In this document: positions 8,983 to 59,516 of the stretch, piece by piece
How the letters are laid out: each line of letters begins with the position of its first letter
How positions within the stretch are numbered: the stretch's first letter is position 1
Origin: Paludibacteraceae bacterium
GTDB taxonomy: Bacteria; Bacteroidota; Bacteroidia; Bacteroidales; Paludibacteraceae
Assembly: GCA_024399965.1 (NCBI GenBank)
Contig: JAKSNJ010000009.1
Location: 1 to 64,000, forward strand
Direction: 5' to 3'
Length of the DNA: 64,000 bases
Translations under genes and position numbers: made by a program
Notes under the pieces: generated by a model
What the model saw: only the letters and a program-made list of their open reading frames with translations
Told to the model about the DNA's origin: nothing
Database searches by the model: none

Positions 8983-10130
8983 TGAAACGAATTGCGATAT
9001 TAGGTAGTACGGGTTCTATTGGAACGCAAACCTTAGATGTGGTACGGAGCAATCCGGACCTGTTGGAGGTGTATGCCATAGTCGCCCATACCAGTGTAGA
9101 TAAACTCATCGAACAGGCACGCGAGTTCCGTCCGGAAATGGTGTGCATAGCCGACGAAAGCAAGTACGAAGAGCTAAAAACAGCCCTGCAGGATATGCCT
9201 TGCAAGGTGTGGGCAGGTGCTGATGCCATCGCGGAGATGGTCACGATGCCCAGCATAGACATTGTGGTGGCAGCCATGGTGGGTTATGCCGGCTTGCGTC
9301 CCACGATGGAGGCCATCAGGGCTGGTAAGACAATAGCCCTCGCCAACAAAGAAACGATGGTGGTTGCCGGAGAGATAATATGCGACTTGGCTGCGAAATA
9401 CCACGTGCCAATCTTGCCCGTAGATAGTGAACATAGTGCTATTTTCCAGAGTTTGGTTGGAGAAGATGCACGCCAGATAGAGAAAATCCTCCTTACAGCC
9501 AGTGGCGGACCGTTCCGCACCTTTACCACAGAGCAGTTACGTACCGTGACTGCCGCACAGGCACTCAAGCACCCCAATTGGGAAATGGGAGCCAAAATAA
9601 CCATCGACTCTGCCAGTATGATGAACAAGGGTTTTGAGGTGATTGAGGCCAAATGGTTGTTCGGGGTACAGTACGACCAAATCGAGGTGCTGGTTCATCC
9701 GCAGAGCATCGTGCATTCGGCTGTGCAGTTCCGCGATGGCGCTATCAAGGCACAGTTGGGCGCTCCCGATATGCGGTTGCCCATTCAGTATGCGCTGACC
9801 TTCCCCGAACGCCGGCAAAGCACTTTCCCGCGAGCAGACTTGTTTGCCCTAAAAGACCTTACCTTTGAGAAGCCCGATATGCAGCGCTTCCCCAATTTGG
9901 GCTTGGCATACGAGGCCATTCGCCGAGGCGGCAATATGCCTTGTGTACTCAATGCAGCCAACGAGGTCGTCAACTTGGCTTTTCGCGAAGGACGTTGTGG
10001 ATTCTTGGAAATGTCAGAACGCATAGCCACTACCATGGCTAAAGCCACCTATATACAAAAACCGACATACGAAGATTATGTAGCTTCCGATGCCGAAGCC
10101 AGACAGATAACTAATTTACAAATTGATTAA
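8982..10130 (+). CDS. dxr: 1-deoxy-D-xylulose 5-phosphate reductoisomerase
   Basis: Makes 2-C-methyl-D-erythritol 4-phosphate from DXP with NADPH, the committed step of the MEP isoprenoid pathway. The 382-residue protein starts MKRIAILGSTGSIG, the NADPH-binding loop. It also has ALANKETMVVAGE, the metal and substrate motif LPVDSEHSAIFQ, ASGGPFR and NKGFEVIEA. I chose ATG 8982 because it places the nucleotide-binding strand at the N terminus. The last codons lie in a 16-base tandem duplication shared with the start of rseP. Confidence 0.97.
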   Translation: MKRIAILGSTGSIGTQTLDVVRSNPDLLEVYAIVAHTSVDKLIEQAREFRPEMVCIADESKYEELKTALQDMPCKVWAGADAIAEMVTMPSIDIVVAAMVGYAGLRPTMEAIRAGKTIALANKETMVVAGEIICDLAAKYHVPILPVDSEHSAIFQSLVGEDARQIEKILLTASGGPFRTFTTEQLRTVTAAQALKHPNWEMGAKITIDSASMMNKGFEVIEAKWLFGVQYDQIEVLVHPQSIVHSAVQFRDGAIKAQLGAPDMRLPIQYALTFPERRQSTFPRADLFALKDLTFEKPDMQRFPNLGLAYEAIRRGGNMPCVLNAANEVVNLAFREGRCGFLEMSERIATTMAKATYIQKPTYEDYVASDAEARQITNLQID

Positions 10131-10143
10131 TTTACAAATTGAA
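10112..10143 (+). repeat. 16-base tandem duplication at the dxr/rseP junction
   Basis: TAATTTACAAATTGAT (10112-10127) is followed by the same 16 bases with one change (10128-10143). The first copy encodes the last codons of dxr and the second starts with its TAA stop and ends one base before the chosen rseP ATG. Confidence 0.85.
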
Positions 10144-11595
10144 ATGATACAAGCTCTTCAGTTAATATTAGCATTAAGCTTTTTAATACTCATTCATGAG
10201 TTAGGACATTTCACGTTTGCCCGCATCTTTGGTGTGCGAGTAGAGAAATTCTATTTGTTCTTTGATTGGAAATATGCACTACTCAAGGCCAAACGTTTCA
10301 ATGGTAAGTGGCATTTTAAGTTCTTTCAACCCACTACCGACGAAAAAGATGAAAACGACGAGTGGAATCAATACCCCGATAACACGGAGTGGGGAATAGG
10401 TTGGATTCCGTTTGGCGGCTATTGTGCCATCGCCGGTATGGTGGACGAGACACACGATGCCGAACAAATGGCTAAAAGTGAACCGCAACCGTGGGAGTTC
10501 CGCAGCAAAAACGTTTGGCAACGCTTCTGCATCATCATTGGCGGTATATTGGTAAACTTTATCGCTGCTTTGATTATCTTTGGTCAACTGCTCTATGTGT
10601 GGGGAACGGATGTGTTGCCCTTGCGCAACGTGACGACAGGTTTGTACTATTCCGAGATATTGGAGCAAGAGGGATTTCAACAGCAAGATAAGATTTTGTC
10701 GGTTGATGGTCAGGAACCTCTGGAAATAGGTGATTTCGTTCAGTCGATTATTATTGAGGGCAAGCGCAATGTTACCGTGCTGCGTGGCACCGATACTGTG
10801 GCTTTGACTATGTCGGAAGATTTGGGTACACGCTATTTGGCTCTGCAAAACGAGTTTGACCGAGTGGAGCGTGTCAAGCACCATCAAGATAAATCCTACC
10901 AAAAAATGCGTTATACATTGGTTAGCGAGTATATTCCTTTTGTGGTTGATACCGCTTTAGCCGGTAGCATAGCCGAAGAGGCAGGCATTCGCAAGGGCGA
11001 TACCATCGTGGCTGTAGCAGGTGTGCCCACACCTTGTTATGTGATGGTAAACCAAGAAATGCGCAAGCACCCGTGCGAGCAGATTGCCATAACGCTTGGG
11101 CGTGAGACAGGACGTGACACCATAGATGTGTTCGTGGGTGACCATTGTATGATAGGCGTGGCTCAACAGGATAGATACCACTATTTTGAGACGGAACATA
11201 CCGACTATACCTTCTTGCAGTCTATCCCTGCCGGCATTCGCTATGGCTGGGGAGTATTGGAGATGTATGTCAAGCAGTTCCGCTTGGTATTTACCAAAGA
11301 AGGGGCGCAATCCTTGGGTGGCTTTGGTGCTATTGGCTCGATGTTCCCCAATATGTGGAATTGGTACAGTTTCTGGTTTATGACGGCCTTCTTAAGCATC
11401 ATATTGGCGTTTATGAACTTCCTGCCTATCCCTGCCTTAGACGGCGGGTACATCTTGTTCCTAATCTTCGAGATGCTGACAGGTAAGAAACCGGGAGATA
11501 AATTCCTCGAAAAAGCCAACCAAATAGGCATGTGGCTACTATTGGCACTGCTGATTTTTGCAAACGGAAACGATATATTTAAATTATTCTTCTGA
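10144..11595 (+). CDS. rseP: Site-2 intramembrane metalloprotease RseP
   Basis: A 483-residue inner-membrane zinc protease that cleaves membrane-embedded anti-sigma factors or signal peptides. HELGH at residues 18-22 is the zinc site in the first membrane helix. PDZ-like regions fill the middle, and NFLPIPALDGG at about 424-435 carries the third ligand Asp. I chose ATG 10144, which gives a normal hydrophobic N terminus. An in-frame ATG at 10123 would overlap dxr. In Bacteroidota rseP commonly follows dxr, as here. The stop codon overlaps the first two bases of the DUF559 element. Confidence 0.95.
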   Translation: MIQALQLILALSFLILIHELGHFTFARIFGVRVEKFYLFFDWKYALLKAKRFNGKWHFKFFQPTTDEKDENDEWNQYPDNTEWGIGWIPFGGYCAIAGMVDETHDAEQMAKSEPQPWEFRSKNVWQRFCIIIGGILVNFIAALIIFGQLLYVWGTDVLPLRNVTTGLYYSEILEQEGFQQQDKILSVDGQEPLEIGDFVQSIIIEGKRNVTVLRGTDTVALTMSEDLGTRYLALQNEFDRVERVKHHQDKSYQKMRYTLVSEYIPFVVDTALAGSIAEEAGIRKGDTIVAVAGVPTPCYVMVNQEMRKHPCEQIAITLGRETGRDTIDVFVGDHCMIGVAQQDRYHYFETEHTDYTFLQSIPAGIRYGWGVLEMYVKQFRLVFTKEGAQSLGGFGAIGSMFPNMWNWYSFWFMTAFLSIILAFMNFLPIPALDGGYILFLIFEMLTGKKPGDKFLEKANQIGMWLLLALLIFANGNDIFKLFF

Positions 11596-11622
11596 CACCC
11601 CCAAGCCCCCTCAATAAGGGGG
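11594..11622 (-). repeat. Left 29-base terminal repeat
   Basis: GACACCCCC, three bases, then the palindrome CCCCCT-CAATA-AGGGGG (11606-11622). It is the inverted partner of 12068-12096 and related to the lpxB copies at 58900 and 59033. Confidence 0.85.
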
Positions 11623-11636
11623 ATGTGAATAAGAAT

Positions 11637-12017
11637 ATGATAAACAAAATTAACTACGCCGATCCGAGGATATATACTCTACTGAAAGAAGAAGCACGTA
11701 GAATGAGGCAATTTCCTACAGAGGCAGAAAAATGTATGTGGGAATTATTGAGAGGACACAGGTTAGGTGTATTATTTAGAAGGCAATACATAATTGAGCA
11801 ATATATAGTAGATTTTGTGTGTTTTTCTAAAAACTTAATTATTGAAGTAGATGGAGATTATCACTATACAGAGGTTCAAAAGATAGAAGATGCGCAGCGT
11901 ACACAACAATTGGAAAAATTGGGATTTAAAGTTATCCGCTTTGACAATAAGGAAGTTGTGGCTAATTCCTGTGAAGTAGAACGTGAAATTAAAACAATTT
12001 TGTGTAATATAAATTAA
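11637..12017 (+). CDS. DUF559 (Vsr-like) endonuclease-fold protein
   Basis: A 126-residue protein of the DUF559 family, related to very-short-patch-repair endonucleases of the PD-(D/E)XK fold. Family landmarks are visible in order: FPTEAEKCMWELLR, FRRQYIIEQYIVDF with the first acidic residue, LIIEVDGDYH with the second acidic group, and GFKVIRFDNKEV near the C terminus. GTG 11625 is an alternative start. The gene is clearly more AT-rich than rseP and the acyltransferase around it and is bracketed by the inverted repeats, which suggests acquisition. DNA cutting or nicking is predicted from the fold. Its target is unknown; the flanking palindromes are the obvious candidate. Confidence 0.85.
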   Translation: MINKINYADPRIYTLLKEEARRMRQFPTEAEKCMWELLRGHRLGVLFRRQYIIEQYIVDFVCFSKNLIIEVDGDYHYTEVQKIEDAQRTQQLEKLGFKVIRFDNKEVVANSCEVEREIKTILCNIN

Positions 12018-12026
12018 TGTAGGTAT

Positions 12027-12650
12027 ATGAATCAACAAAACAACAATGGAATGATTATGCACAATAACCCCCTTAATGAGGGGGTATGGGGGTGTCATGA
12101 ATCATCGTACGTCGATGACAACTGCCAGATTGGCAAAGGAACGAAAATATGGCATTTCTCACATGTGATGTCTAATTGTGTCATTGGTGAGGACTGCAAC
12201 ATCGGTCAAAACGTAGTCATATCACCGGATGTGGTGTTAGGCCGTAATTGCAAGATACAAAACAATGTGTCTGTCTATACCGGCGTGCGCTGTGAGGACA
12301 ATGTTTTTTTGGGACCGAGCATGGTGTTTACCAACGTCATTAATCCTCGTGCAGCCGTATCACGCAAATCGGAGTACAGGGAAACACTTATTCATGAGGG
12401 AGCTTCAGTAGGTGCCAACGCCACAATCGTATGTGGTCATCAGTTGGGTAAATACTGCTTGATAGGTGCTGGGTCGGTGGTGACGAAAGATGTGCCCGAT
12501 TTCGCCCTGATGGTGGGTAACCCTGCCCGTCGTATAGGGTGGGTGAGCCGAAACGGAGAGAAACTGACTTTCAATGCCGAAGGTATGGCTACTTGCCCTG
12601 CTACCGGAGAAAAATACCAATTAATCAACGATAAAGTTATTCTGCTATGA
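12027..12650 (+). CDS. Hexapeptide-repeat acyltransferase (WbbJ-like)
   Basis: A left-handed beta-helix acyltransferase, likely an acetyl- or acyl-CoA enzyme acting on a nucleotide sugar or surface polysaccharide. The core begins at HESSYVDDNCQIGKGTKIWH, the typical start of this subfamily, and repeated hexapeptides with I/V/L at turns run to NPARRIGWVS. The 207-residue reading from ATG 12027 has about 25 extra N-terminal residues; NNPLNEGVWGC among them is encoded by the right repeat of the DUF559 element. ATG 12051 is an alternative. The original start was probably replaced when the element arrived. The end overlaps DUF4293 by four bases (ATGA). Confidence 0.85.
   Translation: MNQQNNNGMIMHNNPLNEGVWGCHESSYVDDNCQIGKGTKIWHFSHVMSNCVIGEDCNIGQNVVISPDVVLGRNCKIQNNVSVYTGVRCEDNVFLGPSMVFTNVINPRAAVSRKSEYRETLIHEGASVGANATIVCGHQLGKYCLIGAGSVVTKDVPDFALMVGNPARRIGWVSRNGEKLTFNAEGMATCPATGEKYQLINDKVILL
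12068..12096 (+). repeat. Right 29-base terminal repeat
   Basis: Palindrome CCCCCTTAATGAGGGGG (12068-12084), TAT, then GGGGGTGTC. It is translated as part of the N terminus of the acyltransferase if ATG 12027 or 12051 is the start. Confidence 0.85.
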
Positions 12651-58082: not shown

Positions 58083-58344
58083 TAAATATTGGATAGGCAT
58101 TGTGCTGGGACTCTTACTGCCACTGGCGTTTATTCTTATCTATTTGGACCACTTTAATCTGTGGTTCTTGTTGGACGTAGGCAAGGCGGCTTTCCCAACT
58201 TTCTCTAAGTTGTGTATGCTGGGTGTCTTCCCCAACTTGGCGCTTATCTTTGTCTTTTATACCACGGATACTTGGAACTTGAGTAAAGGGGTGCTTATTG
58301 GTGCCTTCCCCTATATGATTGCTGCTATTGGTCTAACTATATGA
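58069..58344 (+). CDS. Small inner-membrane protein
   Basis: A 91-residue hydrophobic protein with three predicted membrane segments (IGIVLGLLLPLAFILIYL, LCMLGVFPNLALIFVFY and VLIGAFPYMIAAIGLTI). Coupling to both neighbours (14-base overlap with surE, ATGA overlap with lpxB) suggests it is translated. Function is unknown; related small proteins are found between surE and lpxB in other Bacteroidales as far as I recall. Confidence 0.75.
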   Translation: MQRFDKYWIGIVLGLLLPLAFILIYLDHFNLWFLLDVGKAAFPTFSKLCMLGVFPNLALIFVFYTTDTWNLSKGVLIGAFPYMIAAIGLTI

Positions 58345-59516
58345 AATATTTCCTCCTTGCCGGTGAGGCGTCCGGCGACTTACATGCTTCCAATCTAATG
58401 CGTGCTCTCAAAAACGAGGACGCTGACGCTGTCTTTGTCGGTTTGGGTGGAGATAAAATGCGTGAGGCAGGGTGTCGCTTGCTGCAGGATTATCGCAAAA
58501 TGGCATATATGGGCGTGATTGCTGTACTGGCTAATTTGCGTAAGATACGGCAGAATTTCCAGATTGCCGAGCAGGGACTCTTATGCGAGCAACCCGATGT
58601 GGTGGTACTCATTGACTATCCCTCGTTTAATCTCAAGATAGCCAAGTTCTGTAAGAAGAACTTGCCAGCCACCAAGGTGGTATATTATATTCCGCCTAAG
58701 GTGTGGGCGTGGAAGGCGTTCCGTGTACATCAGATTGCGCGTTTGTCGGATCTTATTTTGGGTATTTTCCCCTTTGAACCGGCTTTTTATGCCAAGTACG
58801 GCTATAAATGCGAGTACGTCGGCAATCCGACGATGGACTCCATCCGCGAATATCAATCCTCTCATCTACAACCTACAACTTACAACCTACAACCTACCAC
58901 CCCCTTATTGAGGGGGTCGAGGGGTGTCCCCATTATTGCCCTATTGCCGGGTAGCAGAAAGGGCGAGATAAAAAACTGTTTGCCCAAGATGCTAAAAGCG
59001 GCACGCCAAGTTCGTCAATTCATCTCCTCTCACCCCCTTACTGAGGGGGGCGAGGGGTGTCAGATTGTCGTCGCCGCCTCCCCTGGCATAGACGATTCGT
59101 TCTATGCCCCGTATTTGCAAGGAGAGGAACTGACGCGTGACACGTATGATTTGGTGACGAAGGCGAGTGCAGCGGTAGTTAATTCGGGTACGGCGACCTT
59201 GGAGACGGCTTTACTTGGTTGTCCGCAGACGGCGGTGTATCATATTGCTTGTTCGCGTTGGTTGGGATGGATTAAACCGTTTATTTTTAGGATACCTTTC
59301 TTTACGTTGGTTAATATCATTCCGGCGCGTGAGGTGATTAAGGAATTGATTGCGTTTTATTTTACGGAGGACCGTATTGTGCAGGAACTGACGCGTTTGC
59401 TCACGGACGAACCCTATCGGCAACGGATTTTGGCGGATTATGATGATATTCGTTCTATCTTAGGCAACCACCCCGCTGCCACCACCGCCGCAAAGCAAAT
59501 CGTATCGTTGCAATAG
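58341..59516 (+). CDS. lpxB: Lipid A disaccharide synthase with three repeat insertions
   Basis: Joins UDP-2,3-diacylglucosamine and lipid X to form the lipid A disaccharide at the inner membrane. The 391-residue protein starts MKYFLLAGEASGDLHASNL and has GLGGDKMREAG, VYYIPPKVWAWK, YVGNPTMDS, IALLPGSRKGEIK and NSGTATLETAL. Between NPTMDSIREY and IALLPGS there are about 30 residues encoded by a heptamer array and a 29-base palindromic repeat. A second copy of the palindromic repeat encodes SSHPLTEGGEGC before IVVAASPG. Both sit in expected linker or loop positions, so function is probably kept. Confidence 0.93.
   Translation: MKYFLLAGEASGDLHASNLMRALKNEDADAVFVGLGGDKMREAGCRLLQDYRKMAYMGVIAVLANLRKIRQNFQIAEQGLLCEQPDVVVLIDYPSFNLKIAKFCKKNLPATKVVYYIPPKVWAWKAFRVHQIARLSDLILGIFPFEPAFYAKYGYKCEYVGNPTMDSIREYQSSHLQPTTYNLQPTTPLLRGSRGVPIIALLPGSRKGEIKNCLPKMLKAARQVRQFISSHPLTEGGEGCQIVVAASPGIDDSFYAPYLQGEELTRDTYDLVTKASAAVVNSGTATLETALLGCPQTAVYHIACSRWLGWIKPFIFRIPFFTLVNIIPAREVIKELIAFYFTEDRIVQELTRLLTDEPYRQRILADYDDIRSILGNHPAATTAAKQIVSLQ
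58866..58900 (+). repeat. Five heptamer units inside lpxB
   Basis: CTACAAC units with one TTACAAC and a last CTACCAC; the array ends on the first base of the palindromic repeat. Confidence 0.9.
58900..58928 (+). repeat. 29-base palindromic repeat, lpxB copy 1
   Basis: CCCCCTTATTGAGGGGG (58900-58916), TCGA, then GGGGTGTC. Same architecture as the right end of the DUF559 element. It is translated in one frame as PLLRGSRGV. Confidence 0.9.
59033..59061 (+). repeat. 29-base palindromic repeat, lpxB copy 2
   Basis: CCCCCTTACTGAGGGGG then GCGA and GGGGTGTC, in the same orientation, 133 bases after copy 1 but in another reading frame (HPLTEGGEGC). Confidence 0.9.

Follow-up and report, generated by a model that had tools for sequence, protein, structure and literature searches.

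Does a small nuclease gene that lies between two inverted copies of a palindromic repeat move that repeat through a bacterial genome? The question is raised by a 64-kb stretch of DNA from a Paludibacteraceae bacterium (positions 1 to 64,000 of contig JAKSNJ010000009.1, here called the window), where a gene of the DUF559 family stands between 29-base inverted ends and further copies of the repeat lie inside lpxB. Among the known families of repetitive extragenic palindromes (REPs), the nuclease gene of the REP-associated tyrosine transposase (RAYT) is bracketed by inverted REP copies, and the initial annotation of the window suggested a parallel arrangement with an unrelated nuclease. The best explanation of the 503-bp unit at 11594-12096 is a mobile element composed of a Vsr/EDxHD-type nuclease gene between inverted 29-bp bipartite repeats, each with a C-rich head and a C/G hairpin. 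With a probability of roughly 0.6, we consider that the REP-like repeat and the homing-type nuclease form a single mobile system that parallels REP/RAYT, with an unrelated enzyme in the place of the RAYT.

The order of the genes and repeats at this junction is rseP, a 29-mer, the DUF559 gene, the inverted 29-mer and a hexapeptide acyltransferase gene. The inverted ends are placed as first annotated: the 29-mers at 11594-11622 (plus strand) and 12068-12096 (minus strand) are identical at 26 of 29 positions, with 3 mismatches, no such match was obtained in 100 shuffles, and the outer ends of the unit read GACAC and GTGTC. Four copies of the palindrome core CCCCTNANTNAGGGG lie in the window, against a mean of 0.10 in shuffles, and two of them, at 58901 and 59034, correspond to the solo copies already noted in lpxB; a chance origin of the window copies was rejected on both shuffle tests. 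Using single-stranded DNA parameters, the hairpins of the left and right repeats fold at -6.2 and -6.4 kcal/mol, and in each case 2 of 200 shuffles were equally good. The features involved are as follows.

11594 to 11622, plus strand: left repeat, with head GACACCCCC, spacer AAG and hairpin CCCCCTCAATAAGGGGG; its first two bases finish the TGA stop of rseP.
11625 to 12017, plus strand: DUF559 gene (Pfam), 130 amino acids, with a GTG start at 11625 and an ATG at 11637 as a possible alternative.
12068 to 12096, minus strand: right repeat, the inverted copy (26/29 identical), within the acyltransferase reading frame.
10123 to 11595, plus strand: rseP (RIP metalloprotease; TIGR00054, E 8.5e-57), the upstream neighbour, its stop codon overlapping the left repeat.
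12027 to 12650, plus strand: hexapeptide acyltransferase gene, with its start codon and about 22 N-terminal codons from the element.
58341 to 59516, plus strand: lpxB (TIGR00215), host of two solo repeats.
58900 to 58928, minus strand: solo repeat 1, in open frame within lpxB; hairpin less distinct, 15 of 200 shuffles being equally good.
59033 to 59061, minus strand: solo repeat 2, in open frame within lpxB; 16 of 200 shuffles equally good.

The limits of the insertion were defined by comparing 30 acyltransferase loci, 29 from congeners and one from this genome, which are the best-scoring of 178 genomes and not a random sample; the element-bearing junctions of genomes G042, G007, G117, G093 and G167 are not among them. 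At 21 of the 30 the end of rseP lies 67-144 bases before a fixed anchor with neither palindrome nor DUF559 gene between, so that the empty syntenic junctions to be looked for according to the initial annotation do exist; 7 loci have no recognisable upstream rseP and no element, and the remaining two, in the window and in G132, carry the element. Relative to the empty junctions, the insertion opens at GACAC, where two bases finish the stop codon of rseP, and closes at GTGTC; the ATGAATC that follows is common to the empty alleles. The occupied junction has lost some 20 bases, the former acyltransferase start codon among them, and because that codon is gone the acyltransferase starts inside the element, which encodes its first 22 residues or so; many acyltransferase homologues align only from residue 21-23 onward.

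The enclosed gene is indeed a DUF559 gene, its product matching PF04480 at 113.8 bits (curated cut-off 20.6; E 4.7e-33). A 33-row profile matched the structures 3hrl (E 1.9e-29) and I-Bth0305I (3r3p; E 9.4e-8), and a Foldseek search with an AlphaFold2 model of the protein (mean pLDDT 86) again returned 3hrl and 3r3p at the top, with 3r3p at ranks 2-3 (E 7.1e-5 and 1.2e-4) and Vsr (1cw0/1vsr) as weaker matches (E 0.014, 0.020). Residues D63, E74, D76, G77, H80 and D89 are invariant across 33 aligned DUF559 rows, and a D-F...E-x-D-G-x-x-H-like pattern, which compares with the active-site motif of the EDxHD family, is present in 135 of 137 DUF559 domains of at least 95 amino acids and missing from those of loci L043 and L085. 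By homology, predicted fold and conserved active-site residues, the window protein is thus classed as a Vsr/EDxHD-type nuclease related to homing endonucleases, and the same profile and fold matches place it in a nuclease family other than that of the RAYT enzyme, as had been supposed. A DUF559 protein is also filed under the EDxHD homing nuclease family in PMC9403480. Matches to PHROGs were weak, some of them to endonucleases, and a defence role was considered and rejected, the PADLOC matches being weak only, those to the homing-endonuclease model (E 1.2e-5 to 7.6e-3) among them.

Bare copies of the repeat are present well beyond the window. The source genome (G000; 1.66 Mb in 44 contigs, 83% complete), which has a single DUF559 (PF04480) gene, gave 23+22 strand matches to the pattern CCCCTNANNNAGGGG, equal to 26 places, versus 0+1 for a reversed-pattern control; the genome-wide search suggested by the initial annotation was therefore positive. 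Aligned by eye, most copies share the head GACACCCCC or one near it, a three-base spacer and CCCCCTNANTNAGGGGG. We examined 21 of the 24 solo places, leaving out three on contig C40, and counted a solo as in frame when it lay in an open frame of at least 150 codons that could start upstream of the repeat and ran for 20 codons or more beyond it. Seventeen of the 21 lie in open frame inside longer open reading frames (ORFs), one of which, of 156 codons, may be spurious. The host genes include, by PDB matches, dapB, ispE, ilvE, lpxB (two copies) and lysC, and, recognised by eye only, polA and mutS2. Compared with three close relatives, dapB has an insert of 8 residues at its solo repeat, and ilvE has one of 9 residues compared with a gene that is 93% identical. 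In each of three repeat sequences, four of the six frames were open. Intragenic insertion of solo repeats is not constant between genomes.

Two other observations concern the surroundings of the solos. In-frame tandem repeats of about 7 bases (such as CTACAAC and AATGCAC series), differing among congeners, also occur in loops of the solo-bearing genes, at 58840-58900 in lpxB and in loci L012, L125 and L131, as though tolerated repeat DNA filled gene loops in general. At L004, L005 and L006, three solos within about 5 kb each stand just before a similar C-terminal tail (KIIKxNRLYILRxGKMYNALGI-like), which is perhaps a secretion signal and with which the repeat copies may have spread.

The bracketed layout is widespread. 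Each DUF559 locus was given the score of its strongest inverted match without gaps, taken between the 250 bases before and the 250 bases after the DUF559 domain, with a threshold of at least 13 and with pseudo-gene windows in the same loci as controls. The threshold was reached by 38 of 64 loci from the genus and order (2 of 240 control windows) and by 56 of the 79 loci scored from named genomes (3 of 458), the latter set being the best 80 of at least 560 confirmed places. With the sets taken together, flanking inverted repeats are present at 92 of 141 loci, or 47 of 66 insertion sites, versus 5 of 698 control windows, in counts that are possibly two too high since L155 and L157, apparently duplicates of L101 and L081, were kept. 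DUF559 genes are thus flanked by inverted copies above chance, as the initial annotation had asked, and, on the control windows, chance was rejected as the source of the flanks both for the genus and order loci and for those from named genomes. Loci L110 and L219 are incomplete and went unscored, L179 and L222 were dropped from the pool as the same contigs as L028 and L103, and L049 and L121 were unused. Low-scoring DUF559-like matches, mostly in long ORFs that appear helicase-like by eye, were left out of the flank and tree sets, and five low-scoring matches (L044-L048) showed no flanking match above shuffles. By eye, most DUF559 ends are variants of one design, with a C-rich head, a short spacer and a C/G hairpin.

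Clustering of flanks reduced 143 loci to 66 sites, which is an undercount as LeuRS and ValRS were merged. Recurrent sites include the mraY-murD, ftsW-murG and rseP-acyltransferase junctions (mraY, murD, ftsW and murG identified by eye) and the interior of a DegT-type aminotransferase. Furthermore, at 34 of the 80 named-genome loci the DUF559 frame continues for at least 90 codons on both sides, so that it lies in frame inside another protein. In 15 representatives, Pfam identified ValRS, IleRS, LeuRS, RecG, UvrD, MazG, CinA, DegT, RecJ and MetH as hosts, together with UDP-GlcNAc 2-epimerase, an Eco57I-type methylase, methylmalonyl-CoA mutase and GH31; these are 14 different host genes, three of them related synthetases, the synthetase kinds, RecJ and MetH being assigned by reading Pfam domain sets. 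A LeuRS with DUF559 aligns to the Thermus enzyme up to residue 292 (236 in Thermus) and again from 433 (240), about 140 residues (293-432) replacing 3 of the Thermus protein. A scan of the 15 fused proteins at E 1e-5 found no intein domain.

Three loci deserve separate mention. L043 (genome G078) has a degenerate DUF559 in LeuRS that has lost the catalytic signature and shows no palindromes, its frame being still open; L187, on a contig titled Candidatus Aminicenantes, has a DUF559 with inverted ends in frame in an Eco57I-type methylase gene; and L192, on a contig of a metagenome-assembled genome titled Limnohabitans, carries a RecG-DUF559 fusion of the same type as in Flavobacteriaceae, by mis-binning or transfer.

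If nuclease and repeat belong together, repeat types might be expected to follow DUF559 lineages. When the 178 congeners, many of them incomplete assemblies, were sorted by a DUF559 match of at least 67 bits (41 with, 137 without), at least one C5-type repeat was found in 26 of 41 genomes with the match and in 30 of 137 without it. The sequence CTCCCCNCAAGGGAG, found at the element ends in much of the mraY-murD lineage, is present in 4-44 copies in all nine genomes with that lineage (up to two of the copies being element ends), in 25-41 copies in all three genomes of ftsW-murG type, and in 16 and 69 copies in two genomes of a further site; of the 27 genomes whose DUF559 belongs to other lineages, only 3 have four or more copies. 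The loop type of the DUF559 ends agrees with that of most solos in G000, G042 and G167, and G007 has no C5-type copies besides its own two element ends. A strict one-to-one pairing of DUF559 ends with solo repeat type was rejected, since it fails in G117, G092 and G082. Repeat types appear from these comparisons to match the resident DUF559 lineage often, not always.

A tree was made from 142 of the 143 DUF559 domains (115 columns; one domain of fewer than 70 residues was left out, near-copies were included and many forks lack resolution). The domains cluster by host site, with 18 changes versus a shuffled mean of 61.6, and none of 200 shuffles was as low. Recent horizontal spread as the main mode is not supported at most sites, mean DUF559 identity there being below host identity; exceptions in which the DUF559 is not below its host are 30 of 45 degT pairs (diverged hosts) and 4 of 28 rseP pairs, and some of these pairs may involve a duplicate record. 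Since DUF559 is at most sites less conserved than its host, long residence fits better than frequent transfer, and the tree together with the same-site identities suggests long residence at a site with new sites founded occasionally.

Similar ends occur in other bacteria as well. A plasmid-collection set of 14 loci from cyanobacteria, Deinococcus and alpha- and gammaproteobacteria, with 300 bases taken on each side, gave a weaker contrast than the other sets, with 8 of 14 loci at 13 or more versus 4 of 56 controls and 7 of 14 at 16 or more versus 1 of 56. The passing loci (three cyanobacterial, two Deinococcus, three alphaproteobacterial) show the head-plus-hairpin design by eye, examples being a DUF559 gene between sufB and sufC in Sphingomonas and another between paaD and paaZ in Deinococcus; both gammaproteobacterial loci, including that of E. 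coli H240, scored like controls. At L234, L235, L238 and L245, DUF559 genes of cyanobacterial plasmids lie near genes annotated DUF499, DUF1156 or BREX PglX. E. coli K-12 has the DUF559 gene ycjD between sapF and fabI (L246, 1205-1761), with a C-rich hairpin repeat downstream, and no intact inverted pair was seen round ycjD in this strain. BLAST (E up to 0.1) placed the ycjD-side repeat in 5375 of 5426 E. coli genomes, the median number of places per genome being 19. The repeat is probably BoxC. BoxC is listed at 56 bp and 32 copies in PMC2267715.

How does this arrangement compare with known systems? It resembles REP/RAYT in its short head-plus-hairpin repeat, in the nuclease gene between inverted copies and in the scattered solos, some of them intragenic. 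It differs in that the nuclease is of Vsr/EDxHD type instead of a Y1 HUH transposase, that most of the solos examined here are intragenic in open frame, and that the nuclease gene can itself sit in frame within a host protein. Moreover, the head is C-rich (GACACCCCC or close) and the aligned copies have no GTAG or CGTC tag, in contrast to REPs as described in PMC3733652. No match to the Y1 transposase (PF01797) was found in the source genome at its 83% completeness, nor, among the 13 genomes searched, in the incomplete assemblies of G042, G021, G041, G082 and G163; in the other seven (G092, G150, G167, G095, G176, G035 and G190), ORFs of 330-416 codons matched Y1_Tnp weakly and partially, in six of them above the curated cut-off. 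The layout works like that of REP/RAYT, but the defining enzyme and tag of that system were not found here.

The DUF559 proteins resemble I-Bth0305I and other EDxHD or Vsr-like homing endonucleases in profile and fold, and in the repeated occupation of the same conserved-gene sites; unlike these, DUF559 is read through or lies between genes, is often bracketed by palindromes that also exist solo, and is without an intein domain in the 15 fused proteins. In-frame palindromic DNA within ORFs of likely functional proteins is shared with the Rickettsia palindromic elements (RPEs) treated in PMC3733652, from which the present repeats differ in that their ends also bracket a nuclease gene, the likeness being one of layout. 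The same paper gives intragenic in-frame REPs and RPEs as already known, names untagged REP-like families and raises the question of whether these are tied to specific proteins. YcjD of E. coli shares a C-rich head-plus-hairpin repeat beside a DUF559 gene and differs in the lack of an intact inverted pair in K-12. Caulobacter VsrA (CCNA_02930), another DUF559-domain protein, is linked to DNA damage in vivo; the passages on it in PMC12907096 describe a predicted mismatch-repair endonuclease, needed for the SOS response of cells without the methyltransferase ScmA, and mention no repeats. A literature search that left out bioRxiv and most subscription journals found no report of a link between DUF559 and palindromic repeats or of in-frame DUF559 insertions.

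Overall, the repeat-nuclease-repeat unit has the ends of the bare repeat, and each of the two occurs in coding DNA or in operons whose genes lie close together. We infer that the DUF559 enzyme moves the repeats: it would cut or nick the target and/or an extruded hairpin, and repair of the break would copy the repeat or the whole unit into the cut site. The solo repeats would be the non-autonomous form, and their in-frame placement what selection leaves. Where insertions have survived, the host gene is still in frame, since four of the six frames of the repeat are open and the unit can provide its neighbours with stop or start codons or be read through. Several observations weigh against one joint mobile system. 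A clean insert was found in only two (dapB and ilvE) of the five solo-bearing genes compared with congeners; the loops of ispE and lpxB vary in all relatives, so that an insert cannot be placed, and lysC has one usable relative. In G167, only 5 of 21 repeats lie in frame by a similar ORF criterion, the rest being mostly intergenic or at gene edges. At the threshold used, 49 of 141 DUF559 loci have no flanking inverted repeat, and the in-frame loci are divided equally, 17 of 34 with and 17 of 34 without. Among the 137 congeners without a DUF559 match of at least 67 bits, 12 have five or more C5-type repeats and 22 have four or more copies of CTCCCCNCAAGGGAG; the presence correlations are uncorrected for phylogeny, and the repeat type disagrees with the genome's own DUF559 ends in G117, G092 and G082. 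Same-site DUF559 pairs are mostly less conserved than the host gene. Finally, no target-site duplication was evident at rseP, dapB or ilvE, the few sites compared, and break-and-repair is therefore favoured over classical transposition. Of the parallel with REP/RAYT first proposed, the widespread flanked layout, the empty junctions and the distinct nuclease family stand, and some counts speak against a tight link between repeat and DUF559 (12/137, the type mismatches, 49/141). As regards two of the signs against the proposal that the initial annotation had named, DUF559 genes do have flanks at 92 of the 141 pooled loci, and palindromes do occur in some congeners without a DUF559 match of at least 67 bits.

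Three other explanations were considered. DUF559 might be only a site-specific homing endonuclease, homing between alleles of conserved genes, with the palindromes as passengers or landing pads and the solos spread by another activity. The homology to I-Bth0305I by profile and fold, the filing of a DUF559 protein under the EDxHD homing family in PMC9403480, the clades that follow host site with the same sites occupied in several genomes, and the repeats in congeners without a DUF559 match of at least 67 bits all agree with this. We nevertheless hold it to be unlikely, because at 47 of 66 sites DUF559 stands between inverted copies of a repeat of one design, because the repeat is the boundary of the insertion wherever empty alleles were compared, and because the repeat subtype goes with the DUF559 lineage in several genomes.

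A resident Vsr-like repair or restriction-like nuclease, with palindromes serving expression as terminators or mRNA stabilisers and mobility incidental, would be in keeping with the presence of Vsr among the weaker Foldseek matches and with the requirement for VsrA in the SOS response of Caulobacter cells lacking ScmA (PMC12907096). An in-frame DUF559 in 14 host genes and dispersed in-frame solos are not expected of a regulatory hairpin, and this explanation appears improbable. We give even less credence to the view that the repeats are ordinary REPs, mobilised by a transposase of Y1/RAYT or IS200 type, and that the DUF559 association is secondary. The REP-like head and hairpin, the Y1_Tnp matches, weak and partial, of 7 of the 13 genomes and the intragenic in-frame REPs of PMC3733652 might be explained in this way, but the remaining six assemblies, although incomplete, include that of the source genome and have no such match, the aligned repeats bear no GTAG or CGTC tag, and the gene between the repeats is DUF559.

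A wider form of the joint system, which we put forward tentatively and at somewhat less than even odds, is that DUF559 nucleases are the enzymes behind a bacteria-wide superfamily of untagged C-rich head-plus-hairpin repeats, spreading both as bare repeat and as repeat-nuclease-repeat unit. It would cover Bacteroidota, cyanobacteria, Deinococcus and proteobacteria, including the ycjD-side repeat of E. coli, and its members would persist inside essential genes without splicing because their DNA is translatable in frame. As E. coli K-12 carries both ycjD and an adjoining dispersed repeat, the question can be put in that standard laboratory strain. If true, these proposals would provide an enzyme for bacterial palindromic repeats that have had none so far, and would add a second, independent arrangement of the REP/RAYT kind, whose nuclease gene can live, with no splicing device, inside essential proteins that include aminoacyl-tRNA synthetases.

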